Virus record (IMG/VR): IMGVR_UViG_3300008459_000438
Span: 1-22,631 of that record
Direction: 5' to 3' (one strand)
Length of the DNA: 22,631 nt
Source: a virus
Part shown: positions 704 to 18,636 of the stretch, piece by piece
Layout: each line of letters opens with the position of its first letter
Position numbering within the stretch: the stretch's first letter is position 1
Position numbers and translations under genes: made by a program
Notes under the pieces: generated by a model
What the model was told of the DNA's origin: nothing
Databases searched by the model: none
The model's input: only the letters and a program-made list of their open reading frames with translations

Positions 704-3100
704 ATGGCAGAAAAAATTGTAAGTCCTGGTGTCTTTACGAATGAATTAGATCTTTCATTCTTACCAGCCGGAGTTGCGAATATTGGTGCAGCGTTTGTTG
801 GCCCTTTACAAAAAGGACCAGCATTTGTACCAATCGTACTAACCAACTTCGAGCAATTCAAGTCATACTATGGAGATCTTAACGAAAGTTATTATATCCC
901 GTATGCAGTACGAAATTATTTAAAAAATGCTTCACAGGTAACTGTTGTACGCGTTGTATCTGAGGGTGGATATGCTACTAATGGATTGTCTATTATTAGT
1001 GGTTCATCAATCATTGGTTTATTATTACCAACAACTCAAGTTGGATTCAGTAACGGAGCTGATTTTGCAAAAACAACCGGAGCCGCAGTAACAGCAGGAA
1101 CCGCCTCATTAGTTGTTTCTGGTTCAAATGTAACAGCTGAGAGTGCTAGTGTTAGCTTTACCAGCACTGATACTAACTACATATTAAAAGTATTAGGTCA
1201 GTCTGCTAAAGGTGCTAAAAAAGCATATGCTTATGTTTACATGGAGCAGTATGCAAAAAGCCAAACTAGTAAAAACTTTGTTATTAACTCTGGATCATTA
1301 TCAGCATCTATTGACTTAAGTGGTGCATCAACCAACTACGGCAAGTTTAGACCAGGTGCAACACCGTGGATTACTTCGCAGCTTATAGGTACTGGTGCTA
1401 GCAAATCAACACAGCGATTGTTCAGAGTGTTGACTCAAGGTGATGGTGATTTGTTTAATAGAACATTTAAAGTGTCTATCATTAACACAAACCTCGCTGG
1501 TAACGTACCAGGTAGTGATTATGGTAACTTTACTCTATTAGTGCGCGATTATAATGACACAGATAAGAGACCAAATGTATTAGAAACTTACTCAAACTTA
1601 AATTTAGATCCAGATTCACCTAACTACGTTGCTAGAAGAATTGGTGATAGGTATTATGAGGTTGTTGCTAGTTCAGGATTTGGTGCAGAGGTAGTTGCTA
1701 AAGGTGAATACAATAACATTAGTAAACTGATTCGTGTTGAAATGAACACACAGGTTGCTAACAAAGCGACAGATGCAGGATTGAATCCATATGGATTTGA
1801 GTCCGTATTAGACACTGTTGTTGTTCCTGGATGCACAATGCCAACAGCTAGCTTAGTAACAGTTAATCCAGAAATTGAGGGAGACTATAGTGAGCGCGCT
1901 TATTATGGATGGCATTATGATGGTACTAATGATAACGCAAATTATCTTAAGCCAGTGCCAAATGGTGCTACAGTTGGATCGAACGTATTGTTTAACCTAG
2001 ATGAGTGTGCAATTTCCGTTGATTACGGCACAGCTAGATCTGCTAATAGTGCTTTAACCGCAGGTCAAGTAATCTCTGGTTCAACTTTAAGAGGATTAGA
2101 TGTATCTACCATTGCTAAATTTAATGTACCATTCCAAAACGGATTTGACGGTGACGATCCAGCAGTACCATTGAATACTGGTGCAAATATCACTGATACT
2201 AACACCGTTGGTATGAACTGTGCCACAGCAACAAGTTCTGGTTCAGTAGCTTACTTCAAAGCATTAAATGCAATGTCGAATGCCGAAACATTTGATATTA
2301 ACTTGCTTTCTATGCCAGGTATTAACCTTAACGATCACAAGATTATTTGTGACAAGGCTGTAGACGTAGCAACAACTCGTGGAGATGCATTTGTTATCCT
2401 CGACCCAGTTAAGCAAGGAACAACTGTTGGTACAGCTATTGAAGGTGTAGAAGGTAGCTTAGTGGATTCTAACTATGCAGCTGCATACTGGCCATGGGTT
2501 AAAATTCTCGACATTAACAGAAACAAGCCAGTGTGGGTACCTGCATCAGCTGTACTCCCAGGTGTAATCGCTCGTTCAGATGCAGCCGCATTCGAATGGT
2601 TTGCTCCTGCAGGTTTGAACAGAGGTGGTATTCCTGACGCTTTGGAAGTTGAAGCTAAGCTTAGCGTATCACAACGTGATGCTTTGTATGATGCTCGTAT
2701 TAACCCACTTGCTAGCTTCCCAGCTCAGGGTGTGTGTGTATGGGGTCAGAAAACTTTGCAAACTAAGGCATCTGCTTTGGATCGTGTAAACGTAAGACGC
2801 TTGATGATTACTTTGAAGAAGTATATCGCTAGCTCTACTCGCTATCTTGTATTCGAAAACAATACTGTTGAAACTCGTCAGAAGTTCATCAATATTGTAA
2901 CTCCTTATCTTGAGAATGTTAAAGCTCGTCAAGGTCTGTATGCTTTCCGCGTAGTAATGGATGAGTCAAACAACACTCCTGATGTTATTGATCGTAACCA
3001 GCTTTATGGTCAAATCTTCATCCAGCCTACCAAGACTGCAGAATTTATTGTTCTTGACTTTAATATTCTGCCTACTGGTGCAACTTTCGATAACGCTTAA
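704..3100 (+). CDS. gp18: Contractile tail sheath protein (T4 gp18-like)
   Basis: This 798-aa protein forms the contractile sheath around the tail tube. It has the two conserved ends of the family. The N-terminus carries SPGVFTNELDLS with AAFVGPLQKGPAF, then a YYGDLNESYYIPYAVRNYL segment that starts the first conserved domain. The C-terminal ~240 residues form the sheath core, with QKTLQTKASALDRVNVRRL, an arm region and the ending IFIQPTKTAEFIVLDFNI. It is longer than T4 gp18 (659 aa). The extra length lies in the Ser/Thr/Gly-rich middle (about residues 105-560), the variable outer domains in this family. The tail tube gene follows 28 nt later, the standard order. The ATG at 704 is the natural start, with an A/T-rich leader and no Shine-Dalgarno. 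Arginine codons shift from mixed AGA/CGN to almost all CGN in the C-terminal part. Confidence 0.95.
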   Translation: MAEKIVSPGVFTNELDLSFLPAGVANIGAAFVGPLQKGPAFVPIVLTNFEQFKSYYGDLNESYYIPYAVRNYLKNASQVTVVRVVSEGGYATNGLSIISGSSIIGLLLPTTQVGFSNGADFAKTTGAAVTAGTASLVVSGSNVTAESASVSFTSTDTNYILKVLGQSAKGAKKAYAYVYMEQYAKSQTSKNFVINSGSLSASIDLSGASTNYGKFRPGATPWITSQLIGTGASKSTQRLFRVLTQGDGDLFNRTFKVSIINTNLAGNVPGSDYGNFTLLVRDYNDTDKRPNVLETYSNLNLDPDSPNYVARRIGDRYYEVVASSGFGAEVVAKGEYNNISKLIRVEMNTQVANKATDAGLNPYGFESVLDTVVVPGCTMPTASLVTVNPEIEGDYSERAYYGWHYDGTNDNANYLKPVPNGATVGSNVLFNLDECAISVDYGTARSANSALTAGQVISGSTLRGLDVSTIAKFNVPFQNGFDGDDPAVPLNTGANITDTNTVGMNCATATSSGSVAYFKALNAMSNAETFDINLLSMPGINLNDHKIICDKAVDVATTRGDAFVILDPVKQGTTVGTAIEGVEGSLVDSNYAAAYWPWVKILDINRNKPVWVPASAVLPGVIARSDAAAFEWFAPAGLNRGGIPDALEVEAKLSVSQRDALYDARINPLASFPAQGVCVWGQKTLQTKASALDRVNVRRLMITLKKYIASSTRYLVFENNTVETRQKFINIVTPYLENVKARQGLYAFRVVMDESNNTPDVIDRNQLYGQIFIQPTKTAEFIVLDFNILPTGATFDNA

Positions 3101-3104
3101 TACT

Positions 3105-3115
3105 TATATTAAATA
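3105..3115 (+). promoter_or_regulatory. TATATTAAATA element upstream of tail tube gene
   Basis: An exact 11-mer TATATTAAATA sits in the 28-nt sheath-tube gap. The same 11-mer occurs upstream of the gp26-like gene (3689-3699) and the helicase gene (22027-22037). With 3688-3700 the match extends to 13 nt. It is a candidate phage promoter core, since its TAAATA end resembles T4-type late promoters, but no experimental support can be read from sequence. Confidence 0.25.
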
Positions 3116-3128
3116 AAGATAACGAAAC

Positions 3129-3626
3129 ATGGCAACACTAATCCCAGAAAATGGTCCTAATGGTATCTTCTATACCAATTACGAACCGAAAACGCAAAAT
3201 AGATTCATCATGCAGATAGGCGGTATACCAGCATTCATCTGTAAGAAAGTCTCTCGCCCTAACATCGATTGTGGCGAAGTTGTAATCGATCACATTAACC
3301 TCGTACGCAAGCTGAAAGGTAAGTGTAAGTGGCAAGATATGACTATGACTTTGTACGATCCGATCGTTCCTTCAGGTGCACAAACAGTAATGGAGTGGAT
3401 CAGAACTGCTCACGAATCAGCAACTGGTCGCGATGGATATGCTGACTTCTACAAGAAAGATATCCAAATTCAAACTCTAGGTCCTGTAGGTGACATCGTT
3501 GAACAGTGGACTATCAAAGGTGCATACATTAAAACTGCAAACTTTGGACAGTTAGACTGGTCAACTGAAACCCAAGTTGAAATCGAACTTACTCTCGGTC
3601 TTGACTGGTGCTTACTTGAATTCTAA
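3129..3626 (+). CDS. gp19: Tail tube protein (T4 gp19-like)
   Basis: This 165-aa protein is almost the same length as T4 gp19 (163 aa) and stacks in hexameric rings to form the inner tail tube. Family features are visible. There is an N-terminal stretch leading to NRFIMQIGGIPAFICKKVSRP, a loop with KLKGKCKWQDMTMTLYDPI and a helix GAQTVMEWIRTAHES. A C-terminal beta-strand pair follows, with IKGAYIKTANFGQLDWSTET and the ending LTLGLDWCLLEF. It follows the sheath directly and is closed by a strong terminator, so sheath and tube look like one late unit. There is no Shine-Dalgarno; the start is chosen as the first ATG and the one that gives family length. Arg codons are mostly CGN, in line with a high-copy protein. 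Confidence 0.95.
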   Translation: MATLIPENGPNGIFYTNYEPKTQNRFIMQIGGIPAFICKKVSRPNIDCGEVVIDHINLVRKLKGKCKWQDMTMTLYDPIVPSGAQTVMEWIRTAHESATGRDGYADFYKKDIQIQTLGPVGDIVEQWTIKGAYIKTANFGQLDWSTETQVEIELTLGLDWCLLEF

Positions 3627-3645
3627 TTGAGTATCTTAGTAAAAG

Positions 3646-3679
3646 AAACCAACCTCGTAAGGGGTTGGTTTTCTTTTTT
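3646..3679 (+). terminator. Rho-independent terminator after sheath-tube unit
   Basis: A 9-bp stem (AAACCAACC at 3646-3654 pairing with GGTTGGTTT at 3663-3671) with an 8-nt loop is followed by C and six T residues. It starts 19 nt after the tube stop codon. Confidence 0.9.
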
Positions 3680-3684
3680 GTGTA

Positions 3685-3699
3685 TATTTATATTAAATA
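3685..3699 (+). promoter_or_regulatory. TATTTATA/TATATTAAATA element upstream of gp26-like gene
   Basis: Overlapping copies of the two recurrent leader motifs (TATTTATA 3685-3692, TATATTAAATA 3689-3699) lie just after the terminator and 25 nt before the ATG at 3725. This is where a new promoter would be expected. The recurrence and position support the call, but the A/T-rich background weakens it. Confidence 0.3.
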
Positions 3700-3724
3700 A
3701 GTTTTATCTAAAAAGTTATAAATT

Positions 3725-4597
3725 ATGACAAAAGTTGTAGGCGATCTTCCACCAAGAGCAGATTCACTCTCAAACGAAGAAATTAAACAAATGTTTGCAG
3801 CAGAACAAGCTGCTTACGAAGGTACACCCGTACAAATCAAAAACGATTTTCCAACTGAGATTATTGACTTACCATCAAAAGGGTATTTCTATCCAGAAGG
3901 TCATCCACTTGCAGCAGGTACTATTGAAATGAAGTATATGACTGCAAAGGAAGAAGATATACTATCTTCCGCAACACTTATTAAGCAGGGAGTTGTATTA
4001 GATCGTTTGATACAATCTTTGATTGTGACAAAAGTAAAATATGATGATTTATTGGTAGCAGATAAAAATGCACTGTTAATTGCATCTAGGATTCTTGCTT
4101 ATGGTCCAGAGTATAGTGTTGAAGTGACTTGCCCTAATTGTGGAGCTAAGAACAAAGTAGATGTAGATTTGCAGCAATTTGAATCTAAAGATCTTGACTT
4201 TAGTGCTCTGCAAAAAGGTAAAACTGAACTAGACTTTACATTCCCAATTTGCAAAAAGCATATTACTTTTAAGTTCTTGACACATGGCGATGAAAAGCTG
4301 ATCGAACAGGATATCAAAGGATATAACAAGATGAGGGCTTTACACGGAGTAGATCCGCAGCTGTCAACTAGATTGAAGCATTTAATTACTTCAGTTGAAG
4401 GTGATAGAGATAAAGCAACAGTTCATAAGTTTGTCGATAACTTGTTATCCCGTGATTCGTTAGCACTTAGAAGCTACTTAAAAGAAATTACCCCAGATAT
4501 TGATTTAACCTTTCACTTTAGCTGCAATAGCTGCGACTACACCAACGAGAAGATGATGTTGCCGCTCGATGTGTCCTTTTTTTGGCCTGGGGCCTAG
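3725..4597 (+). CDS. gp26: gp26-like baseplate protein with zinc ribbon; possible frameshift donor
   Basis: This 290-aa protein resembles the T4 gp26 baseplate hub assembly family. The conserved core is visible at residues ~48-100: IDLPSKGYFYPEGHPLA, then MKYMTAKEEDILSSATLIKQG and VLDRLIQSLI. Two CxxC pairs (C136/C139 in TCPNCG and C267/C270 in CNSC) can form a zinc ribbon. The protein ends in PLDVSFFWPGA. It is longer than T4 gp26 (208 aa). The F-F codons before the end form a run of seven T, and the tag stop lies inside a hairpin, with an overlapping ORF in another frame. It sits between the tube and tape measure genes, the place where tail assembly chaperones are coded in many phages. It could therefore be a baseplate component, an assembly chaperone, or both. 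The ATG at 3725 has an A/T-rich leader without Shine-Dalgarno. Confidence 0.8.
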   Translation: MTKVVGDLPPRADSLSNEEIKQMFAAEQAAYEGTPVQIKNDFPTEIIDLPSKGYFYPEGHPLAAGTIEMKYMTAKEEDILSSATLIKQGVVLDRLIQSLIVTKVKYDDLLVADKNALLIASRILAYGPEYSVEVTCPNCGAKNKVDVDLQQFESKDLDFSALQKGKTELDFTFPICKKHITFKFLTHGDEKLIEQDIKGYNKMRALHGVDPQLSTRLKHLITSVEGDRDKATVHKFVDNLLSRDSLALRSYLKEITPDIDLTFHFSCNSCDYTNEKMMLPLDVSFFWPGA

Positions 4598-4781
4598 TTA
4601 TAGGCCCGTTCTGTATGATCAGATCTTTGATCTGATGTATTATGGGAAGTTAGGTTTTACATTTACCGAACTTTATTCCATGCCGATATTCCTACGTAAT
4701 TATTACTATAGAAAGTTAGCCGATGTACGTAAGAAAGAAAATGAGGAGCACGAAAAGGAGATAAAAAAAGCAAAGAGATAG
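4569..4781 (+). CDS. Overlapping small ORF, likely read by frameshift from the gp26-like gene
   Basis: The open frame overlaps the end of the gp26-like gene by 29 nt and lies in the +1 (equally -2) frame. If started at its own ATG it gives 70 aa, but no ribosome-binding site is seen there. The distinctive part begins after the T run: RPVLYDQIFDLMYYGKLGF, then FTELYSMPIFLRNYYYRKL and a charged helical tail to KAKR. The length, helical character and ELYSMP-type motif are reminiscent of the small downstream partner of tail assembly chaperones (lambda T, P2 E'). Slippage at the T run would give a 351-352 aa fusion carrying this domain. Independent translation from ATG 4569 or ATG 4635 remains possible. 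A strong terminator overlaps its stop codon. Confidence 0.65.
   Translation: MCPFFGLGPSYRPVLYDQIFDLMYYGKLGFTFTELYSMPIFLRNYYYRKLADVRKKENEEHEKEIKKAKR
4577..4636 (+). other. Candidate programmed ribosomal frameshift signal (slippery T7 plus hairpins)
   Basis: Seven consecutive T residues (4577-4583) encode F-F in the gp26-like frame. Six nt further starts a perfect 7-bp hairpin: GGGCCTA at 4590-4596, loop GTTA, TAGGCCC at 4601-4607. The zero-frame TAG stop (4595-4597) lies inside the stem and loop. A second perfect hairpin follows: 8-bp stem ATCAGATC at 4618-4625, loop TTT, GATCTGAT at 4629-4636. The downstream open frame requires a +1 or -2 shift. Spacing of 5-9 nt between slippery site and stem is usual for stimulatory structures, and Mu is known to use a -2 shift in its chaperone gene. 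Efficiency and direction cannot be read from sequence. Confidence 0.6.
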
Positions 4782-4805
4782 GCCGATAAAACATCGGCCT
4801 TTTTC
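4780..4805 (+). terminator. Rho-independent terminator after the frameshift ORF
   Basis: An 8-bp perfect stem (AGGCCGAT 4780-4787, loop AAAAC, ATCGGCCT 4793-4800) is followed by a T tract interrupted by C. The stem overlaps the tag stop of the small ORF (4779-4781). Confidence 0.88.
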
Positions 4806-4816
4806 ATTTTCAAAAC

Positions 4817-4824
4817 TATTTATA
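4817..4824 (+). promoter_or_regulatory. TATTTATA octamer before the 97-aa gene/tape measure unit
   Basis: This is the third leader copy of TATTTATA, placed between a strong terminator and the ATG at 4835, where transcription of the long baseplate unit would have to restart. It is only 10 nt from the ATG, so it would give a nearly leaderless transcript if it were a -10 box. The call is weak. Confidence 0.2.
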
Positions 4825-4834
4825 AAAAAACAAT

Positions 4835-5128
4835 ATGACAAGGAAAGAGCTATATCAAATCATACGTGAAGAGTACGACAACGTAAGATTAGAAGAAGGA
4901 CTGCTGTCATGGGCTTCTGGAGTTGCAGATAACATTTTTTATGGTATCATAAACAAAAGAGCAGATATACTTAGAAGTAAAATATTTGATGATCCAAAGC
5001 TACAGAGATTAGCAAAGGACTTGAAGATAGATAAAAAAGAATTAGAAGCAAGAGTTAATAAATTGTTGTCAAGTGATCCAAGATTTTTAAAGAATCTTGC
5101 AACAGTTAGAGCTAAGTATGTTCGCTGA
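4835..5128 (+). CDS. Small helical protein upstream of the tape measure, function unknown
   Basis: This is a 97-aa basic, mostly helical protein. It opens with MTRKELYQIIREEYDNVRLEEG, a pattern (KELxxIIREE) that I recall from the N-termini of several small phage proteins. A short Trp/Gly segment (LLSWASGVADNIFYGI) is followed by two charged helices with DPKLQRLAKDLKIDKKELE and a basic end (VRAKYVR). It overlaps the tape measure start by one nt (TGATG), so the two are likely translationally coupled. A tape-measure chaperone or minor tail protein is plausible from position only. No Shine-Dalgarno precedes the ATG; the leader is a run of A residues. Confidence 0.65.
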   Translation: MTRKELYQIIREEYDNVRLEEGLLSWASGVADNIFYGIINKRADILRSKIFDDPKLQRLAKDLKIDKKELEARVNKLLSSDPRFLKNLATVRAKYVR

Positions 5129-8100
5129 TGGCTAAAAAGCAAAAAATAGATCAGTCACAAATAGACCTATCTAGCATTGGGCAACTCCTCAGCAACATAG
5201 CCGCTGAGAGTTTACAAGATGCTATTGATGCAGTAGAGTTTTCTAGTGTATCCTATAATTTAGCAGATGCTATTGTAGGTGGCTTACAAGACGTTGATGT
5301 CGCTAAGATTATAAAAGAGAATTTAGTAGAAGATACAGCTGTTAAAAAAGTACTTACCGATGCGCAAAAGAAAGTCGAAGACGCAATCGGTAATATGAAA
5401 ATACAGTTAAATAACATAACTGTACCGAAGTCACCAATAAGCATAGATGCAAAACTTGGCAAGATAGATACAACTAGCATAGCAAAGTCAATATCAATAC
5501 CAATTGAATATAGTTATAGTGATTTTGACTTACCAAACGAATCATTGTCTGTAGCTGTAGACTACCTCTATGACACTTTCAAGCTGCCCGTCAAGGAAGC
5601 TGAAAAGAAGATACAAGTACCAGTAAATTACATATATAGTAAATTTACCTTACCATCAGTAAAAAAAATTGATGTGCCGGTATCATATGTTTACGATAAG
5701 TACACTCAGCCAAAAGCAACAAAGGTTAATGTACCGGTAGAGTATGACTATGAGAAGTTTTCATTACCAAAAATAAGCACACTTAACATACCAGTAGAGT
5801 ATACCTACGATAAGCTTATTCAACCAAAAGCACAGCAAATAGACGTGCCTGTAAAATACAAATACGATAAGTTTGTATTACCAACCGCTAAGCCAATAGA
5901 TATTTTTGTTGACTACGTTTACTCAAAGCTTGATTTGCCAAAGGTATCACCTATTAATGTGCAAGTTAAATATGCCTATGATAAATTTATACTACCAAAA
6001 GTATCAGATTTGCAAATAGGTGTATCATATTTGTATGATAAATTTATACTACCAAAAGTATCAGATTTGCAAATAGGTGTATCATATTTGTATGATAAGT
6101 TTACATTACCAAAAGTAAACAGCATAACTATACCAGTTGCGTATATCTATGAAAAACTTAGCTTACCAAAAGTCGATGATATAGAGGTATTCGTTGACTT
6201 CGTATACAGCAAATTACAATTACCCAAAGTAGAACCAATAAGTGTAGCAGTAAAGTATGCTTATGATAAATTCCTACAACCAAAGGTAAGTGATCTTGAG
6301 ATTGCCGTTAGCTACGCATACGACAAGTTTGTACAGCCTATTGCAAAGTCATTAACTGTACCAGTAAAGTATTCCTATGACAAGCTTGTATTACCAAAGG
6401 CCCAAGCCTTAGACGTATTTGTAAGTTATACATACGATAAGCTGCAATTACCAAAAGCAGCACCTATTAATATATTAGTAAAGTATAGCTACGATAAGTT
6501 TGTATTACCAAAAACAAACGACATAGAAGTAGGCGTTAGTTATCTTTATGACAAATTCACTTTACCAACAATAAGTGCATTAACTATTCCAGTTAAATAT
6601 GTTTACGATAAACTAGCATTACCAAAAGCACAAGCTTTAGAAGTGTTGGTTGGATATGTTTATGATAAACTAACTATACCAAAAGCTAACCCTATTACAG
6701 TAGCTGTTAAGTATATTTACGATAAATTTGTACAAGTTAAACCATACAGCATTGAGGTCCCAGTGTCTTATGCTTATGATAAATTTACATTACCTAAAGC
6801 TCAGCAGATTGATGTAGCAGTAAATTATTTGTATGATAAGTTTGTGTTACCAAAAGGTACTGTAAGCATACCAGTAAAATATATTTACGAGAAGCTTATT
6901 TTACCAAAGGCTAGTGATGTAAAAATTGGCGTTACTTACCTATACGATAAGTTTATACAACCAGCAGTAAAACCAATCACTATTGCTGTTAAATACATTT
7001 ACGATGAGCTTATTGTACCAAAAGTAAAAGATATAGGTGTTGGTGTCAAATTTACATATGATAAGTTAGTACTACCAAAAGTTGAAGCTCTGAGTGTGAA
7101 AGTTGGATACGTGTACGACAAGTTCATTCAACCAATTATTAAGCCTATTGTAGTAGGTGTAAAGTATGCATACGAAAAGTTTGTGTTACCAAAAGCACAA
7201 CAAGTAAATATAGCAGTTGATTACATTTATAGTAAGTTTAATTTACCAAAAGCAACAATATCTGTACCGGTATCATTCAACTACGATAAATTTGTTTTAC
7301 CTAAAGTAGGTGGATTGTCAGTACCCGTAGCATTTGATTATGATGAGTATACACAACCAGAACCAGAAGATATAACAATACCGGTAAGCTATGATTACGA
7401 TAAGCTCATTTTACCAAAATCACAAGCAGTAAATGTATTTGTTGATTATGTTTATAGCAAATTCACTTTACCAAAAGCAAATCCATTATCAGTAGCAGTA
7501 AAATATGTTTATGATAAATTAGTTTTACCAACAGTTAAAGATATAAAAGTACCAGTACGATATGTACTTGATAAGTTTGTAGCACCAAAACTAGAGCCAA
7601 TTACAGCTAATATATTACCAGATACATCGGCACTTGGTTTAATGGATGATGTAAACGTAACGGCTAAAGTGTCTGCTTTTAATACAGATTTAATACAACA
7701 AAGAATAAGTGAGATTACCCCAATTGATATTAATACAACGACATCAGGTGCACCAGTTATAAGCACACTTACGTCGGGTATAGAAAACGTAAGTGATGCA
7801 GCTAGAAACTTTGTTAACTTAATAGGTGAAGCAAACAAACGTGCAACTATAACAGTTCAGTTATATGATCGCATAAGACAAGCTGCAGAGCAATTAGTGT
7901 CTGCTAATATGATGGAAAGAGCTGAAGTAGATAAAACACTTCAGACACTTGAAACTAAACTCAAAGCAACAAAATCTGTAACACTGTCAACTAAACTTGG
8001 CAAGATTGATACGGGTGGATTAAAGCCAGTAAACATAGAAGCGGTTGTATCTAAAGTTGATATGTCCACTGTCGATAAAGAGGTTTACAAGTATACACCT

Positions 8101-11100
8101 ATTATACTGGATGCAGTTGTTAATGTTGATACAAGTGAAATAGAGAAATTACAAGGTAGTGTACAACCACAAATACAAGCAAGCGTATCAGAAGCAAACA
8201 ACCCACAAAAAACAGCAGCTCCCAACATAACTGGATTCAATACTACGGAACTCACCACAGCATTAAAAAAGGCAATTGTTGACGCAACTGTATTTATGCA
8301 AAAAGAATTTGGTATTGCGGCAGCAGCTGTTGGTAAAAATGCTGGCACATTTATTAATAGTGGTATATCAAGTAGTAAATTATTTTCAGATATAGACACT
8401 AGTGATATTGTTGGCTCCTTTGATGATTTACTAGACTCAACGAAGCAGTTAAGAACGGAAACTACTTTAATATTAAATAATAACAAAGAAGATCAACAAA
8501 CAATTATACAAAGATTAGCATACCAAAAGAGTATAGCTAGTCTAGCTTTTGAAGAAAAAGCGATACTGGTTAGTAGGCTCGGAATAGATCCAGGTGGTAA
8601 GTCTGATAAGCAGATTAACAGCCTTATAGTTGAGCGACTAATGTATCAATATAAGCTAAACGATGCATTGGCAATATCAAAGGAAACTGCTGTAGATTAT
8701 ACACGGGCTATGAGACAAGCCGAAATGGATAATTTAATAAAGGATCTCACAGTGCAGCTTACGTTAACAGAGGATGAGGTGTCACAAAGAGCGTTATCCA
8801 TGGCTTTGGCAAACGAAGCAGCTGGACTTGGTAGACTGTTGACAGAAGAGCAGAAAAAGCAGCTCGTACTAGAAAACCAGAAGCTTAAGCACAGAAGAGA
8901 AGAAGTTGAATTGATCGAGCATGTTGCAAATTATCAAAGAGAGGTAATAAAAGAAGTTGATGAACTTAAAGAAAAATGGACCAAGGTCGGTGCTACAATA
9001 AGAGCTATTGCCGAAAGTCCAGCATTTGCAAAAGGTGTTTTAATAACTAGTGCATTAGCTTTGGGTGAAAGGTTAGCACATACGATGCATGAGTTTAAAG
9101 AAGTTGGTATGGACGCTGGTAGCGCTGTAGAAGCTTCCTTCCGAGGAGTGACCTTTAACTCAATGTTAGGATTAAGTGATACATCGGGAGTATTAAAAAC
9201 AATAGTACAACAATACGGTACCATAAACGCACTAACAGGTGAACAGGTTGATGCGGTCGGGTATATGGCAAAGAGCAATGGATTAGCTGCTGAGGAAGCA
9301 ACTAATATGGTTATGGCATTATCTAGGATGCCTGGCATGACTAGAGAGTCTGCTTCAAACAGTGAAGCAATATTCAAAAGTATAGCTAAACAAAAAGGAG
9401 TTATACCAGCACAAGTAATGAAAGAAGTTGCCAAGAACTCTGGTTTAATGGCAATGTATAGCAAAGGTGGCGCTGAAGGGTTTATTAGAGCAGCTGCCTC
9501 AGCAAAAAAAATGGGTGTTGAGCTAAGCACAATGCTTAACGCTGCTAGAAAAACATTAGATTTTGAAAGTAGTATACAAGCTGAAATGGAAGCCTCTGCG
9601 TTAATTGGTAGATCACTTAACACAGATGCACTCAGAAGAGCAGCATTGTCTGGTGATGCAGAAGCAATACAGAGAGAGCAGTTGAAGCTTATACAACAGG
9701 CAGGTGGTTTAGAAGGTAAGAATACTTTACAAAAAGAGAAGCTTGCAGAATTACTAGGCCTCCAAGTTGAGGACATGCAAAAGATTAACGACAGTGCAAA
9801 ATACCAAGAAGAGCATTTTGGTCAACAAGCGGGTATATGGCAAAATATTACTGGTGGTTTAGGAACAGCTGTTAAATATACAGAAGGTTTATCACAAGGA
9901 TTTAATACATGGTTACCTCTACTAACTGGTGTGACTAGCTTAATGACTCTTATGAATGTTAAAACATTACCAGGTTTAGTAACAGGTACCTATGGTATGA
10001 TTAAGGGTTTGGCATCTGGTGTGTTTCAAGCTGGTCTCCTACTACTTAAGTTTGTAGCTATGGGTGCAGTAAAATTATTTAGCCCATCTACATGGACTGG
10101 ATTAGTTGGTGGTATCACAAGTGCTGGTAAGGCAATGCAAGGATTGAGTTTCAAAGGTGCCATGGATAGTCTAAGTGGTCTGAAAACTAAACTAATAGAT
10201 TTTGTAAAAGCAGCTTCAGCTGGCAAAGTTAAAGAAGCCTTTAGCGGTATGTTTGGTGGAGGTGGGGCAGCAGGTGGCACATCATTTGCAGATAGACGTA
10301 GAATGGTATTGGAAAGGCAAAGAGCGGGTGGTGGATTGTCACCTAGAATCCCTGAAGCACCAACTAGTGGAGCTGGTCCAACTGATCAAGCAAGCAGAGT
10401 TGGTAAACTCAATGCTGGTGATATGATGAAGGGTGCAGCGGCATTGCTAATAGTTTCTGCAGCATTGTACGTTGCAGCAAAAGCATTCCAAGAATTTGCA
10501 ACAGTTAAGTGGCAAGATGTTGCATTGGGCATTGGTGGTATAATTGGATTATCTTTAGCTACAAAAATAATAGCTAAAGGATCAAGCGAGATGATAAGAG
10601 GTGCGGTTGCAGTTGCAATACTTGGTGTCGCATTGATACCATTTGCTTATGCAATGGGTTTGATAGCAAAACTAGATATTAACTCAGTACTAGCAGCTGC
10701 AGCAGGCTTAGTTGTATTTACAGCAGCAGTGTTTGGTCTTGGTGCTTTAATATCCGGACCTGGCGCTATAGTATTTGGTGCAGGTTTACTTGGATTAATT
10801 GGCTTAGGTATAGCGTTGAGTGTATTAGGTGAAGGATTGCAGAAGGTAACAACACCAATGGAAGTGTTTGCAAAGTCTTTTGGAGATATGATAAAGTCAA
10901 TGGACCCTAAATCCTTATTAATGATTGGCATTGGCTTACCATTAGTGGCATTTGGTATAATGGCATTAGCAGGTTCATTGGTATTTGCTATACCAGCCGC
11001 AGCAGCTTTAACAATACTAAGTGGAGGATTGTCTGTATTTGGATTAGCAATGATACCATTAGCTAATGGTTTAAAATTAGTAGCACCAGCACTTGAGAGT

Positions 11101-11784
11101 GTAAGTTTGAGTTTAGCTAACTTGGTATCTAATGTAGATGGAGGAGCATTAATACAAATGGGCATTGGAGCAGCAGCGTTGGGTGTTGGTATTGGTGCAT
11201 TAGGAGCAGCCGCGTTTATAGCATCCCCAGGCTTAGTTGTTTTATCATTAGTGATGATGGGTATAGGTGCATCAATGAAGATAGTGGCTGATAGCATAAA
11301 TTCATCATCAGTAGGTATTCGAGGATTAATAACAAATTTAACACAGTTACCACCATTAGTAAGTGGCTTACTTCAAATAGCAGGAGCGTTAGACAAAGTA
11401 GCATCAAGCATGACTAAGCTAGCAATAGCAGGTGTACTAGCCGCGCCAGCAATGGCTATAATGAAAGGCCTTGGTGGTGGAGAAGTGAAACCAAAAGAAC
11501 CAGTAACATTAGGTGAAGCAAAAACCACACCTGCAGGAGCAGCACCTGTAGTTAAAGCAGCACCACCATTAGCACCTGCACCTGCACCAATTACTGCCGC
11601 AGCGACAACACAACAAACTGTGGAAAAAACAACTAAAGAATCATCCACAGACATATCTATAATAGCAGATAAGTTGACTGAGTTGATTACTGTAATGAAG
11701 TCTGGTGCAGTAATAAATGTTGATGGACGTAAACTTGCAAGTGTTGTACAAAGTAACATAAGAGCATTAAAATTCACTGACTAA
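5128..11784 (+). CDS. Tail tape measure protein with large N-terminal repeat array
   Basis: The 2218-aa product is the longest in the window and follows tube and chaperone-like genes, the expected place for the tape measure that sets tail length. Architecture: residues 1-120 form a helical leader. Residues 121-820 hold 37 units of about 19 residues with the pattern V-x-Y-x-Y-D-K-F/L-x-L-P-K. Residues ~820-1080 hold further degenerate strand segments (KLGKIDT, VSKVDMSTV). Residues ~1080-1285 are charged helices, then ~1285-1555 form a soluble helical domain (GATIRAIAESPAFAKG...VEDMQKI). Residues ~1825-2065 are several very hydrophobic Gly/Ala-rich membrane-like segments. A Pro/Ala-rich linker and a conserved-looking end, INVDGRKLASVVQSNIRALK, follow. 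Membrane-like and helical segments are normal for tape measures; the beta-rich repeat array is not. It overlaps the previous stop by one nt, and its own stop overlaps the next ATG by one nt. Confidence 0.88.
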   Translation: MAKKQKIDQSQIDLSSIGQLLSNIAAESLQDAIDAVEFSSVSYNLADAIVGGLQDVDVAKIIKENLVEDTAVKKVLTDAQKKVEDAIGNMKIQLNNITVPKSPISIDAKLGKIDTTSIAKSISIPIEYSYSDFDLPNESLSVAVDYLYDTFKLPVKEAEKKIQVPVNYIYSKFTLPSVKKIDVPVSYVYDKYTQPKATKVNVPVEYDYEKFSLPKISTLNIPVEYTYDKLIQPKAQQIDVPVKYKYDKFVLPTAKPIDIFVDYVYSKLDLPKVSPINVQVKYAYDKFILPKVSDLQIGVSYLYDKFILPKVSDLQIGVSYLYDKFTLPKVNSITIPVAYIYEKLSLPKVDDIEVFVDFVYSKLQLPKVEPISVAVKYAYDKFLQPKVSDLEIAVSYAYDKFVQPIAKSLTVPVKYSYDKLVLPKAQALDVFVSYTYDKLQLPKAAPINILVKYSYDKFVLPKTNDIEVGVSYLYDKFTLPTISALTIPVKYVYDKLALPKAQALEVLVGYVYDKLTIPKANPITVAVKYIYDKFVQVKPYSIEVPVSYAYDKFTLPKAQQIDVAVNYLYDKFVLPKGTVSIPVKYIYEKLILPKASDVKIGVTYLYDKFIQPAVKPITIAVKYIYDELIVPKVKDIGVGVKFTYDKLVLPKVEALSVKVGYVYDKFIQPIIKPIVVGVKYAYEKFVLPKAQQVNIAVDYIYSKFNLPKATISVPVSFNYDKFVLPKVGGLSVPVAFDYDEYTQPEPEDITIPVSYDYDKLILPKSQAVNVFVDYVYSKFTLPKANPLSVAVKYVYDKLVLPTVKDIKVPVRYVLDKFVAPKLEPITANILPDTSALGLMDDVNVTAKVSAFNTDLIQQRISEITPIDINTTTSGAPVISTLTSGIENVSDAARNFVNLIGEANKRATITVQLYDRIRQAAEQLVSANMMERAEVDKTLQTLETKLKATKSVTLSTKLGKIDTGGLKPVNIEAVVSKVDMSTVDKEVYKYTPIILDAVVNVDTSEIEKLQGSVQPQIQASVSEANNPQKTAAPNITGFNTTELTTALKKAIVDATVFMQKEFGIAAAAVGKNAGTFINSGISSSKLFSDIDTSDIVGSFDDLLDSTKQLRTETTLILNNNKEDQQTIIQRLAYQKSIASLAFEEKAILVSRLGIDPGGKSDKQINSLIVERLMYQYKLNDALAISKETAVDYTRAMRQAEMDNLIKDLTVQLTLTEDEVSQRALSMALANEAAGLGRLLTEEQKKQLVLENQKLKHRREEVELIEHVANYQREVIKEVDELKEKWTKVGATIRAIAESPAFAKGVLITSALALGERLAHTMHEFKEVGMDAGSAVEASFRGVTFNSMLGLSDTSGVLKTIVQQYGTINALTGEQVDAVGYMAKSNGLAAEEATNMVMALSRMPGMTRESASNSEAIFKSIAKQKGVIPAQVMKEVAKNSGLMAMYSKGGAEGFIRAAASAKKMGVELSTMLNAARKTLDFESSIQAEMEASALIGRSLNTDALRRAALSGDAEAIQREQLKLIQQAGGLEGKNTLQKEKLAELLGLQVEDMQKINDSAKYQEEHFGQQAGIWQNITGGLGTAVKYTEGLSQGFNTWLPLLTGVTSLMTLMNVKTLPGLVTGTYGMIKGLASGVFQAGLLLLKFVAMGAVKLFSPSTWTGLVGGITSAGKAMQGLSFKGAMDSLSGLKTKLIDFVKAASAGKVKEAFSGMFGGGGAAGGTSFADRRRMVLERQRAGGGLSPRIPEAPTSGAGPTDQASRVGKLNAGDMMKGAAALLIVSAALYVAAKAFQEFATVKWQDVALGIGGIIGLSLATKIIAKGSSEMIRGAVAVAILGVALIPFAYAMGLIAKLDINSVLAAAAGLVVFTAAVFGLGALISGPGAIVFGAGLLGLIGLGIALSVLGEGLQKVTTPMEVFAKSFGDMIKSMDPKSLLMIGIGLPLVAFGIMALAGSLVFAIPAAAALTILSGGLSVFGLAMIPLANGLKLVAPALESVSLSLANLVSNVDGGALIQMGIGAAALGVGIGALGAAAFIASPGLVVLSLVMMGIGASMKIVADSINSSSVGIRGLITNLTQLPPLVSGLLQIAGALDKVASSMTKLAIAGVLAAPAMAIMKGLGGGEVKPKEPVTLGEAKTTPAGAAPVVKAAPPLAPAPAPITAAATTQQTVEKTTKESSTDISIIADKLTELITVMKSGAVINVDGRKLASVVQSNIRALKFTD
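5452..5471 (+). repeat. KLGKIDT-coding repeat, left of the array
   Basis: The 20-mer AAACTTGGCAAGATAGATAC matches 7993-8012 at 19 of 20 bases. Both code for KLGKIDT and they bracket the 19-residue repeat array at about 36 and 405 nt from its ends. Confidence 0.6.
5488..7587 (+). repeat. 37-unit tandem array (57-bp / 19-aa units) inside tape measure gene
   Basis: By reading the translated frame I count 37 units keyed on V-x-Y-x-Y-(D/S/E)-K-(F/L)-x-(L/Q)-P. Most are 19 residues; a few are 18, and one early unit is 22. Units 8-22 and 34-37 follow a four-type order. Type A ends VDYVYSKL or VSYTYDKL, type B contains PI..VKYAYDKF, type C contains D-(I/L)-x-(I/V)-G-VSYLYDKF, type D contains (L/I)-T-(I/V)-PVKY.YDKL. 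The alternation of short hydrophobic beta-like strands with conserved YDKF-LPK turns suggests a regular beta or extended fibre. Most units have diverged at DNA level, so the array is old apart from one recent duplication. Confidence 0.92.
5977..6098 (+). repeat. Exact 57-bp tandem duplication within the array
   Basis: Bases 5977-6033 and 6034-6090 are identical, and identity continues for 8 more bases (6091-6098). The copied unit is the type C repeat coding KVSDLQIGVSYLYDKF. This is the only perfectly duplicated unit seen and is clearly younger than the rest of the array. Confidence 0.95.
7993..8012 (+). repeat. KLGKIDT-coding repeat, right of the array
   Basis: This is the right-hand partner of 5452-5471, with one mismatch (T for A at the 15th base). 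It starts a more degenerate series of segments of the form V.I.A.VSKVDMSTV in the tape measure. Confidence 0.6.
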
Positions 11785-14405
11785 TGGCTAAGTTGTTTGC
11801 TAATAAATTTAATTTAGATGCTCTAGCTAACCCTCAAAAGCAAGTACGACCTGTAAACCAGGGTGAAGCTGTACTTAAACAGCAGATACCACAACAGCAA
11901 GGAATCCAAGTTGCAAGTAACAGAGATGTGTTCGGTAGAACGATAAGTATGGCAGATAGGTATAGGCAATACGCTGCTGCCGGATCTACAACGCATCTAC
12001 CCGAGTATATTTTATCTGATTACAATACCGGTGGCATAAAAAGAACAATAACAACACAAAAGAACACAAGTGTTAGCTTGAGTAAGGACAGAGTTGATTT
12101 ATTTGGCAGATCCATAAGTATGGCAGATAGATTCAATCAGTTTTCCGCCATCGGATCAACATCACACTTAGGAGAATACGTACTATCAAGCTTTAACGTA
12201 AGACCTTACAGAGATCCTTTTGGCAAAACAATAAAACTTACAGATAGATTTAGACAATATGCAGAAATAACCTCTACATCCCATTTGCCAGAATATGTTC
12301 TGTCTGATTGGAATACTGGATATTTGGATAAACTGCTTGGAAATAAAAATGCAGGAGGTAGATTTACCGATCAATCAATCGCTATAGGCATATTAGAGTA
12401 TGCAGGTATTATCAAACCAATTAATAAAAATTATGCAGACACACCTGTGAATCAAGGTAGAGTAGAAATTGATTTGTTTCCACTAAAAAGATTATTAGAA
12501 AAGTTAGGTACAACATTTTTAACATCTAACTTAACAGAGTTCCGTAAAGAAAAGATAACTATACCTGACATTAAACTACAAAAAATAAAAGCAGGTGATA
12601 GGACATTTGATCCAAATACTAAAATACAAAGAATAGCATACGACGAAGTATCCGTTGTTAATAATAATTTAATCCTTGGCGTAACAACTATACCGGATAT
12701 AACAGTAAATAAAAGTTATTCAAAAAGAGATTTAATCACTAATCCAAATATACGTATTGAGTTAACTGGAGTAAGAACTTTTATAATTGACCCACAAATA
12801 AAAGTTGTTAAGCCTCTTGAACCATATGATGGTGAAACTATAGCAAGTGCACCAGGTTTATTTAAATTACCACCAAGGCTATCAACCGTACCGCAGATAG
12901 GTATTGATCCAACATTAAGAGTTGTATCACCAAAAAGTATATTCTTAACTAATCCTAGAATTTCAATTACAAGAGAAAGGGTAATAATAAATTACCAAGA
13001 GCAGGCTAGTGTTAATAGGATTACTGAGCCATCAATCATTCAAAGACCTGAGCAAAGACATGGTACAATTAGCGTAAATACGCTATTTATCGAACCAGAT
13101 CAATTTTTAACTTTCCCATTATTTAGGCCAGTAAAACCTAGGGATATAAAAATCGATGAGAAGTATGCACCTCAACAAATAACAAGAGTACAAAATATAA
13201 GAGATCCTGAAGCAAGGCATGGTACACCACGGTTTGACGGCCGTCCCGTTACAGTTGATAGTAGATATTTGGTACTTAATAAAAACTTAATTGACTCATT
13301 AGAAAGAGGTGAATTCTTTATATACACAAGTAGAGAGTTAAGAGACATACTAGCATCGCCATATATTGCAAAAAACGATGCATCTATATCCTTACTCAAT
13401 AACAATGGTCAAATTGGTTTTGGCTTTGGTGCACAAAATATATCTAACTATTACTTTCCTGGCATAGCTCCTGTTTATCCACCACAATCAGTTGATGGTG
13501 GTACAGCATCAGATGGTGAAATAAGACCTACATTCAGTCAAACATTTACAAATGCATATACAGATGCTAGCAGGTATTCTCAAACACAAGCGCAAAATAC
13601 AAGCCCACTAAGACAAGCAGCAGAAAATTCAACAGAGGGTTTACTGCAGGTTGGTCCAAATAGGTTTGAACCAGGATCGGCGCCAATAGATGCGGGATTG
13701 GGTTGGGTAGGTTCTAGTGGTACAGGAGGAACGACATTACCTGGTGATTACAGAGCTTTATCCTATCCAGAAATTGCAGCAAAGAGATCTAGTAGTGAGA
13801 GACCTACAAAAGACTTTACAGTTACCACAACAAATGATTCTTTGGAAACATGGAGAGTGAGACTTGGTATGCCTGATAACGGTGAAGGTGATATATTGTA
13901 TAGTGGTGTTGGAGCAACTGCAACAGATTTAGTTAAAGTAAAAATTGGAAGTTTGCAATTTCGTGCGTATATTACTAGCTTCAGTGATAGCTATGCACCA
14001 AGTTATACTGATGTTAATTACATAGGTAGACCTGATGTGTTAAAGGTGTTTAAAAATACAACAAGAAATATAAGTTTGGGTTTTAAAGTAGCAGCATTTA
14101 GTAATAAGGATTTGAAAGGGATGTACAAGAAGATGGAAGCCTTAGTAAAAAACACAGCAATGGCAAGTGTTAGTGGAGTATACGCAAAAGGTCCAATGAC
14201 ATCTTTAACAGTTGGTGGCTGGGTACAGAATGCACCAATTGTTATAAGCTCTTTGAAGTTTGATACAAATCCAACAGAATATACATGGGACATAGAACAT
14301 GAAGTACCACAAATTGTTGATGTGTCATTAGATTGTGTTGTGCTTGCATCTAACGGCGGTTCAGAACCATTTACAACTAGCGGACAATATATAGCATACG
14401 GATAA
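11784..14405 (+). CDS. Baseplate protein: N-terminal triple repeat, C-terminal gp48/54-like tube-initiator domain
   Basis: This 873-aa protein starts on the last base of the tape measure stop (TAATG). Residues 48-179 contain three copies of a ~35-residue motif: D-x-FG(R/K)(T/S)I, (M/L)(A/T)DR(Y/F), then ST(S/T)HL(P/G)EY(V/I)LS. Residues ~270-500 are Pro/Ile-rich short strands with two DPEARHGT/RPEQRHGT motifs. Residues ~665-873 form a compact domain with ETWRVRLG, RAYITSFSDSYAPSY, YIGRPDVLKVFKNTTR, ISLGFKVAAFS, MYKKMEAL, SLTVGGW and the strand pair TWDIEHEVPQIVDVSLD. That domain resembles phage baseplate proteins that cap or nucleate the tail tube. In T4, genes 48 and 54, with this role, directly follow the tape measure gene 29, as here. 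Baseplate assignment is firm by context; the gp48/54 equivalence is inference. Confidence 0.65.
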   Translation: MAKLFANKFNLDALANPQKQVRPVNQGEAVLKQQIPQQQGIQVASNRDVFGRTISMADRYRQYAAAGSTTHLPEYILSDYNTGGIKRTITTQKNTSVSLSKDRVDLFGRSISMADRFNQFSAIGSTSHLGEYVLSSFNVRPYRDPFGKTIKLTDRFRQYAEITSTSHLPEYVLSDWNTGYLDKLLGNKNAGGRFTDQSIAIGILEYAGIIKPINKNYADTPVNQGRVEIDLFPLKRLLEKLGTTFLTSNLTEFRKEKITIPDIKLQKIKAGDRTFDPNTKIQRIAYDEVSVVNNNLILGVTTIPDITVNKSYSKRDLITNPNIRIELTGVRTFIIDPQIKVVKPLEPYDGETIASAPGLFKLPPRLSTVPQIGIDPTLRVVSPKSIFLTNPRISITRERVIINYQEQASVNRITEPSIIQRPEQRHGTISVNTLFIEPDQFLTFPLFRPVKPRDIKIDEKYAPQQITRVQNIRDPEARHGTPRFDGRPVTVDSRYLVLNKNLIDSLERGEFFIYTSRELRDILASPYIAKNDASISLLNNNGQIGFGFGAQNISNYYFPGIAPVYPPQSVDGGTASDGEIRPTFSQTFTNAYTDASRYSQTQAQNTSPLRQAAENSTEGLLQVGPNRFEPGSAPIDAGLGWVGSSGTGGTTLPGDYRALSYPEIAAKRSSSERPTKDFTVTTTNDSLETWRVRLGMPDNGEGDILYSGVGATATDLVKVKIGSLQFRAYITSFSDSYAPSYTDVNYIGRPDVLKVFKNTTRNISLGFKVAAFSNKDLKGMYKKMEALVKNTAMASVSGVYAKGPMTSLTVGGWVQNAPIVISSLKFDTNPTEYTWDIEHEVPQIVDVSLDCVVLASNGGSEPFTTSGQYIAYG
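11925..12320 (+). repeat. Three protein-level repeats at the N-terminus of the baseplate protein
   Basis: The units fall at about 11925-12029, 12096-12200 and 12213-12320. Shared residues are the FGRTISMADR-type start and the STSHLPEYVLS-type end. Spacers differ (~22 residues between the first two, ~4 between the last two). The DNA has diverged, so the repeats are old. Confidence 0.85.
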
Positions 14406-14406
14406 A

Positions 14407-14706
14407 ATGAGCAGTAGATACGATTACGTTAAAAAGGTTAAAAATATCGATGGTAAGACTGTTACTACTAGTTTTACTATACCAGTCATTGAACCTAAAG
14501 ATACAGATGTGTTTATTATAACATCATCAACAGATAGACTAGATACGCTATCAAACAAGTATTATGGATCACCAAAATATTGGTGGGTCATAGCAATGGT
14601 AAATAATGTAAACACAGGAACAATGGTACTACCAGCAAACATGCGTTTATTTATACCATCTGAACTTGGTGACGTAACAACAAAGGTTAAACAAGCAAAT
14701 ATGTAA
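14407..14706 (+). CDS. gp53: LysM-like baseplate protein (T4 gp53-like)
   Basis: This is a 99-aa protein. Residues ~41-88 match the LysM-like fold seen in baseplate wedge protein gp53 and related small tail proteins. The visible landmarks are DRLDTLSNKYYGSPKYWWVI (start helix and WW), an AMVNN helix end, then VLPANMRLFIPS as the final strand. The ATG is one base after the stop of the 873-aa baseplate gene. It lies between the tube-initiator-like gene and the hub gene, which supports a baseplate role connecting hub, wedge or tube. In phage tails this fold acts as a structural connector, so peptidoglycan binding should not be assumed. Confidence 0.72.
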   Translation: MSSRYDYVKKVKNIDGKTVTTSFTIPVIEPKDTDVFIITSSTDRLDTLSNKYYGSPKYWWVIAMVNNVNTGTMVLPANMRLFIPSELGDVTTKVKQANM

Positions 14707-17316: not shown

Positions 17317-18636
17317 ATGATATTTGTCGATAGTTATAGTGTACTGCAGCAGTATAAGGATACTGTTAAGGATAAATGTGTTATAGTTGTACCATTGCTA
17401 CTTGACAATAGAACACATTTTGTAAAAAACGACATAATAGCTTTATATGCTGTTTGTGAAAAGACGGAGTTTGTATTTGCTTTTAAGCATCCAGAGTCTA
17501 CGTTTAAAGATTATACATTAGTAGATGTTTTGAGTGGAGGTACGGTTTATGTCTACGATAGTCATATACTTAGATACTTGAAAAGTACAGTTACTGTAAA
17601 TGATCTTGAAACAGCTCATTATCTAAGTACAACTACAGAGCACGAAAGCGACGAAATATCAACTCAATATCATTATAGAAGATTATACAATTCGTTTGGT
17701 AGACAAGGATATATACAACCCCTTAGTCGATTTATTGAATATGCACGTAATATTGTATTAAACGCCAACATACAAGAAAGCGCTGGTGGATTTTTTTACA
17801 ATACTTCTTTATTTAATGTTTTTCACAAAATAGAATCTAGTGGATTGTGTGTCAACAAAGATTACTTTGTAGCGCAATATGGTAATGTGCCCAACTTAGT
17901 TGATAATAAAGTATACACAAAGTACAATTACTTCACATCAACGGGAAGACCAAGTAACAGATTTGGCGGCATTAACTTTGCAGCTTTGAATAAGAATGAT
18001 GATACGCGTAAATGCTTTATATCTAGATTTGATAAAGGCAAACTTGTTGAAATAGACTTCAAAGCATATCATCCTCATATAATTGCGTGGTTGTGTGACT
18101 ATGATTTCGGTAATGAAGACGTTTATGAGCACTTAGCGAAGCATTACAATGGCACAGATACACCAACTGATCAGCAAATTAGAGAAGCCAAAGAAGCAAC
18201 GTTTAATCAATTGTATGGTGGTATAAATAAAAAATACTTACATATAGAGTTTTTTAAAAGAGCAAAAGAGTTTGCAATAAAATTATTTGATGATTACAAA
18301 AACGACAATTACGTTGTTTCTATAATATCAGGCAGAAAACTGTATGCGGAAGATATGAATGTAGCCAAGCTGTTCAACTATTATATACAGATGCTTGAGA
18401 CTGAGCTTAATGTTGTGTTTTTACACAACTTGTTTAAAGAACTAGATTTTGATCAATGCTTGCCTATCTTATATACCTACGATGCTATATTATTTGACTC
18501 TAAACAGGATTATATAGATGAGCTATTACAAAAAATAAATTTAAGTTTAACTGCTAAATTTCCTATTACAGTGAAAGTTGGAGATAATTATAAGGAGATG
18601 ATTAACTATGAAGACACAGCTGCTTTGCACATTTAG
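17317..18636 (+). CDS. Compact, divergent family-A DNA polymerase-like protein
   Basis: This is a 439-aa protein. Family-A landmarks are in the right order. They are the helix IESSGLCVNKDYF (173-185), STGRPS with R211 and GINFAAL, and motif A EIDFKAYHPHIIA with catalytic D247. Motif B follows (REAKEATFNQLYGG, K292, F296, Y300), then NYYIQ (N354/Q358) and motif C YTYDAILFD with D389. Both catalytic aspartates and the O-helix Lys/Phe/Tyr are kept. The Klenow steric-gate Glu is His252, and motif C reads YDA instead of HDE. Only ~22 residues separate the IESSG helix from TGR, where Klenow has ~120, so the thumb is missing. The N-terminal ~170 residues look like a worn exonuclease domain (VYDSHILRYL, NDLETAHYL). 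It is probably a phage polymerase or specialised nucleotide-adding enzyme; activity is unproven. Confidence 0.75.
   Translation: MIFVDSYSVLQQYKDTVKDKCVIVVPLLLDNRTHFVKNDIIALYAVCEKTEFVFAFKHPESTFKDYTLVDVLSGGTVYVYDSHILRYLKSTVTVNDLETAHYLSTTTEHESDEISTQYHYRRLYNSFGRQGYIQPLSRFIEYARNIVLNANIQESAGGFFYNTSLFNVFHKIESSGLCVNKDYFVAQYGNVPNLVDNKVYTKYNYFTSTGRPSNRFGGINFAALNKNDDTRKCFISRFDKGKLVEIDFKAYHPHIIAWLCDYDFGNEDVYEHLAKHYNGTDTPTDQQIREAKEATFNQLYGGINKKYLHIEFFKRAKEFAIKLFDDYKNDNYVVSIISGRKLYAEDMNVAKLFNYYIQMLETELNVVFLHNLFKELDFDQCLPILYTYDAILFDSKQDYIDELLQKINLSLTAKFPITVKVGDNYKEMINYEDTAALHI

Follow-up and report, generated by a model that had tools for sequence, protein, structure and literature searches.

Analysis of a 22,631-nucleotide sequence from a freshwater bacterial virus (IMG/VR record IMGVR_UViG_3300008459_000438, positions 1 to 22,631, hereafter the window) identified a conserved 19-residue repeat of strand-type composition that accounts for a third of the tape measure protein (TMP) in a contractile phage and is present in 37, 29, about 12 or 3-4 copies in the window and its relatives. 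Repeats within TMPs, and their role in determining tail length, are already known; what is new is a repeat of this type, on this scale and in this variable number.

The repeat lies in a 2218-residue open reading frame (ORF) at 5128..11784, on the + strand like all window features given below. This gene follows those encoding the tail sheath protein (704..3100; phrog_23, 1.4e-73), the tail tube protein (3129..3626; phrog_4542, 4e-24; 58% identical to the tube of Microcystis phage Mel-JY01), a gp26-like baseplate hub protein (3725..4597; phrog_150, 7.3e-18) and a small ORF of 97 residues that matches no PHROG or Pfam family and whose stop overlaps the TMP start (4835..5128). It precedes the baseplate genes, with one large ORF, encoding a baseplate-region protein with short repeats of its own (11784..14405; 33% identical over 111 residues to its counterpart at that position in Mel-JY01), between it and a gene for a baseplate wedge-like protein (14407..14706; phrog_7145, 3.1e-10). 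The gene order is the same in Mel-JY01 (190 kb), whose sheath, tube and hub are 45-58% identical to those of the window. The 2218-residue ORF itself has no direct family match in PHROG or Pfam. The Mel-JY01 protein in the same slot, which is 36% identical over residues 1385-1550 of the window ORF, matches several tape-measure PHROGs (best 1.8e-9), and the protein of a shorter relative in that slot, L010, matches another (3.3e-6). Because of the gene order and these relatives, the assignment to a tape measure protein made in the first-pass annotation is supported, and the ORF very probably encodes the TMP of a T4-like phage with a contractile tail, a relative of Mel-JY01. Further downstream, an ORF at 17317..18636 stands in a Mel-JY01-like order before the genes for a single-stranded DNA-binding protein and RecA; its weak match to DNA polymerase A (1.1e-5) falls below the cut-off, and it is possibly a divergent or partial polymerase.

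The array occupies residues 126-828 of the TMP (5503..7611) and was delineated by motif matches, a profile and lag identity. It comprises 37 motif matches to a 19-residue unit, whose position frequencies give the consensus V1-x-Y3-x-Y5-D-K-F/L-x-L/Q-P11-K-V/A-x-x-I/L/V16-x-V/I18-x, compared with a mean of 0.036 and a maximum of 2 matches in 2000 shuffled versions of the TMP. The spacing from unit to unit is exactly 19 residues in 32 of the 36 steps, the other four being 18, 22, 18 and 18, and identity at lag 19 within the array reaches 0.43 as against 0.03-0.13 at lags 15-18 and 20-24. Against a profile of those units that are exactly 19 residues long, most units score 23-34 bits; the 18-residue units 24 and 31 match the profile in part (14.8-16.5 bits), and units 1, 2 and 37 are degenerate (-3.1, -0.4 and 2.2 bits, respectively). 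The 37-copy, 19-residue array described in the first-pass annotation is thereby confirmed, as is its estimate of almost a third of the protein (31.7%). The span of 5488-7587 given there begins 5 residues too soon and leaves off about 8 residues of the last unit.

At the DNA level, Tandem Repeats Finder detected a recent tandem repeat only at 5977..6117 within the array, where the most recent duplication has a 57-bp period, 2.5 copies and 96% matches; owing to this repeat the unit count may be off by one or two. Outside it the units have only about 57% of their bases in common, so that an assembly artefact is unlikely; the array also recurs on L004/L059, L005 and L007. Identities at the three codon positions are 0.60/0.68/0.46 over all unit pairs and 0.68/0.77/0.51 when units of the window are compared with their matches in L004, so the protein sequence has been kept more than the DNA, which shows that the array is under protein-level constraint. 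Adjacent units are no more similar than random unit pairs. Units four apart are more similar (p=0.007 in the window and p=0.0145 in L004, six lags tested), which suggests either duplication in blocks of four units or a four-unit structural period.

To follow the array among relatives, 55 related contigs were collected in a scan with the tube protein and the TMP downstream of the tube was then inspected. Contig L004, whose tube is 96% identical to that of the window, has 29 units in a TMP of 1841 residues; L007 has 11 clear units and one degenerate unit in a TMP of at least 1577 residues (the contig ends within the gene), and L008 has 3-4 degenerate units in a TMP of 1612 residues. No 19-residue units were found in L010 (842 residues), Mel-JY01 (1348 residues) or the other relatives examined. 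Unit number thus varies among close relatives, as would be expected of the repeat-based ruler envisaged in the first-pass annotation, and does so despite tubes that are 88-99% identical between the window, L004, L007 and L008. L007 and L008, which are 99.4% identical in the tube and 82% identical in the N-terminal segment of the TMP, are nevertheless about 8 units apart. The array is flanked on both sides by conserved TMP segments and therefore grows and shrinks in place: upstream lie residues 1-125 (5128..5502), conserved in L004, L007 and L008 (30-34% identity to these by blastp), and downstream residues 889-954 (7792..7989), which align with L004, L007, L008 and L061. Several units, for example the unique DYDEYTQPEPED unit, have the same order in the window and L004, with other units gained or lost. 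The most conserved part of the TMP in the alignment, residues 1357-1536 (9196..9735), served as the query segment for finding relatives, and 297 stretches related to it were found in viral contigs. The TMP varies in length outside the array as well; L008, for instance, combines few units with a long helical region, so that the array is not the sole determinant of total TMP length.

Other repeats are found in this part of the genome. The TMP-adjoining protein of the window (11784-14405) contains about three copies of a unit of some 45 residues, ..FG(R/K)(S/T)I...DR(F/Y).Q(F/Y)..STSHL.EY(V/I)LS..N, its counterpart in L008 (16839-19895) has a 16-residue GERTIDPKTKI.PI array, and that of Mel-JY01 (L003:14783-21550) has a 44-residue array with 95% identity at lag 44. 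The related TMP of L061 (7586-12340; 1585 residues, with 59% identity in the conserved segment) lacks 19-residue units; several units of about 24 residues (..V.L.A.I..VDTS.I) stand right after its conserved post-array domain and a 42-residue repeat lies near residue 1040. The TMP and the adjoining tail protein of this lineage seem prone to array growth. In L007 (4447-9177) and L008 (12001-16836) the first unit, at residues ~99-120, reads V.V.ADTS(N/E)FKL(P/Q)..KP(I/V).(I/V)P, an apparent hybrid, judged by its sequence, of a DTS-type motif and the 19-residue unit. Kinship between the 19-residue unit and the flanking I.A.V..VDTS.I segments is a suggestion, and profile comparison of the two did not score above column-shuffled controls.

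The strand character of the array is well supported by composition, hydrophobic pattern and modelling. Proline accounts for 8.7% of its residues and V, I, Y, F and T together for 40.6%, compared with 2-3% and 24-28% elsewhere in the TMP, and Cys, Trp, His and Met are absent from its 704 residues; when 53 related TMPs are ranked by strand-type composition, the array carriers come first. Every unit has hydrophobic residues at positions 16, 18, 1, 3, 5 and 8, and positions 2, 17 and 14 are polar. The remainder of the TMP is helix-type, as judged by composition only. AlphaFold2 models of 10 and 20 units contain no helix anywhere, and the 20-unit model is all-beta with a strand period of 19, placing strands in its better part from unit positions 15/16 to 4/5, as the hydrophobic pattern predicts. 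Confidence was low (pLDDT 29.6 for 10 units and 47.1 for 20 units) in these single-chain predictions, which would not detect a fold built from several chains, and a Foldseek search with the 20-unit model returned nothing significant (best E 0.41), the best matches being mostly beta-solenoids. The beta-like reading of the first-pass annotation therefore holds as far as strand type and lack of helix are concerned, but the defined folded fibre that it considered finds no support in the low pLDDT, the Foldseek result or a comparison with the triple beta-spiral. The shafts of the adenovirus fibre and reovirus sigma1 resemble the array in having short repeats, alternating hydrophobic residues and a Pro/Gly turn (PMC3150272, PMC8869412), and adenovirus shaft peptides in isolation do not adopt their native fold (PMC3150272, PMC8869412). 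However, the a-o pattern of the triple beta-spiral, with hydrophobic residues at c, e, g, k and m and Pro/Gly at j, does not fit any register of the 19-residue unit; in the best registers the hydrophobic fraction is 0.36 with 0.97 Pro/Gly, or 0.81 with 0.05. We rejected this fold as a candidate.

Searches with the array against Pfam, PHROG and PDB sequences gave no match worth naming and the unit, which the first-pass annotation had proposed to compare with phage proteins as a profile, matches no known Pfam or PHROG domain. A scan of IMG/VR with the array profile found carriers only in the L004 contig (L059), L007 and L005, and no further carriers were detected in the genome collection, in plasmids or in a DNA search of phages. 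The full-length TMP as a query found no relative in IMG/VR, the exact peptide patterns used probably being too strict. Neither a conserved 19-residue strand-type TMP repeat nor a ruler segment of beta structure in any tape measure was found in the literature searched, which for the former is weak evidence, as subscription papers were mostly outside it.

The first-pass annotation knew of no described tape measure of this kind. This stands for the beta-type repeat, but TMP repeats whose removal shortens the tail are known from phage TP901-1 (PMC5099701). The TP901-1 TMP has 29 repeats, each 11 or 18 residues long and carrying Trp or Phe as a marker, which have been suggested to make it easier for the protein to gain or lose length, and TMP deletions, including those of the repeats, shorten the tail in proportion (PMC5099701). 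The window array resembles it in having tandem, aromatic-marked repeats (here Y3, Y5 and F8) within a TMP. The TP901-1 repeats, however, are predicted to be alpha-helical, are weakly conserved and belong to a non-contractile phage (PMC5099701), whereas those of the window are strand-type, proline-rich and well conserved over 37 copies in a contractile, T4-like phage; a repeat of the 11/18-residue type was rejected for the window, where period and aromatics recur at 19. The TMP occupies the same place in the T4-like tail gene cluster as gp29 of T4, which is present in 3 copies in the tail, and is presumed to have the same role in about three copies; gp29 has no described array of this kind and, at 64.4 kDa, is much the shorter protein (PMC3004832). 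The TMP of Mel-JY01 (WWT39328.1) is syntenic and 36% identical over the best-conserved stretch of the TMP but lacks the 19-residue units, the 44-residue array of that phage lying instead in the neighbouring protein WWT39329.1. TMPs span the tail lumen. In phage 80alpha, the three TMP N-termini are head-proximal and form beta-strands in a sheet with the tail completion protein, and the C-termini reach the baseplate (PMC11661146). The N-terminal residues of that TMP thus resemble the array in strand type; they lie at the head-proximal end of the lumen and contribute one strand per chain (PMC11661146), whereas the window array would contribute dozens.

Taking these comparisons together with the copy-number series, we consider the chances about even that the array is a copy-number-variable, strand-forming extension in the N-terminal third of a contractile-phage TMP, constituting the head-proximal part of the ruler. 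Each unit would provide one amphipathic strand, I16-x-V18-x-V1-x-Y3-x-Y5, with five alternating hydrophobic residues, followed by a further short run of hydrophobic residues, F8-x-L10, and a turn at proline, P11-K12. By analogy with 80alpha and T4 the array would lie in the head-proximal part of the tail tube lumen, where its strands probably pair between chains or between units. Gain or loss of units in evolution would lengthen or shorten the TMP and most likely the tail too, and it is plausible that unit number sets tail length. The arrangement of TMP chains inside the tail is listed as an open question in a review (PMC9022992). A more specific version, in which part of the contractile tail is measured by a non-helical fibre of intertwined beta-strands from the TMP chains, its length tuned by 19-residue units and perhaps in blocks of four, is tentative and somewhat doubtful.

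Alternatively, the array could fold compactly, for example as a beta-solenoid with one coil per unit, and form a plug, a spacer or part of an ejected channel near the head, in which case unit number would hardly affect tail length. We regard this as unlikely. It is in keeping with the all-beta 20-unit model, its 19-residue strand period and its mostly solenoid, if insignificant, Foldseek matches, and the four-unit super-repeat seen in both the window and L004 could be structural; but the models are of low confidence, no match had an E-value below 0.4, and low-confidence beta models tend to resemble solenoids by default. A lumen of about 4 nm would leave little room for three solenoids abreast. 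It is more improbable that the array serves as an elastic linker of low complexity, intrinsically disordered and subject to near-neutral expansion, with the strand pattern reflecting transient pairing or chaperone contacts during assembly. The very low pLDDT of the 10-unit model, the four missing amino acids and the fast change in copy number between near-identical relatives would fit such a linker, and the gp29 of T4 is believed to be unfolded when it enters the baseplate (PMC3004832). Against it, the same positions are hydrophobic in all units and the codon-position identities show constraint. It is rare for a disordered linker to retain five alternating positions of buried type, together with aromatics, in every unit. 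It is very improbable that the ORF encodes a fibre, adhesin or RHS-type protein among the tail genes. In favour of this is the sole distant phage-record match over the array, the RHS/YD-repeat protein of MT835648 (24.7% identity, E 8e-6), but that match lies on an unverified contig without recognisable phage tail context, no RHS Pfam match appears at E up to 1, and gene order and homology put the ORF in the TMP slot, as does the tape-measure PHROG match in L010; RHS/YD repeats were likewise rejected as relatives of the array. The record concerned (L002, MT835648.1, labelled 'Bacteriophage sp.' in GenBank) is probably a bacterial contig and encodes at 2597-11953 a 3118-residue product with a signal-peptide-like start.

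The reading of the array as a strand-forming extension of the ruler bears on how tail length is estimated. TMPs are assumed to be alpha-helical, with a rise of about 0.15 nm per residue, and tail length is predicted from gene length on this basis (e.g. PMC3556154); the same arithmetic gives 333 nm for the whole window TMP and 227 nm without the array, and 276 and 242 nm for TMPs of 1841 and 1612 residues. A chain of which a third is strand-type would break this helix-based rule relating gene length to tail length, and phages that naturally carry 37, 29, about 12 and 3-4 units while having closely similar tubes offer material for a direct test of the ruler hypothesis.
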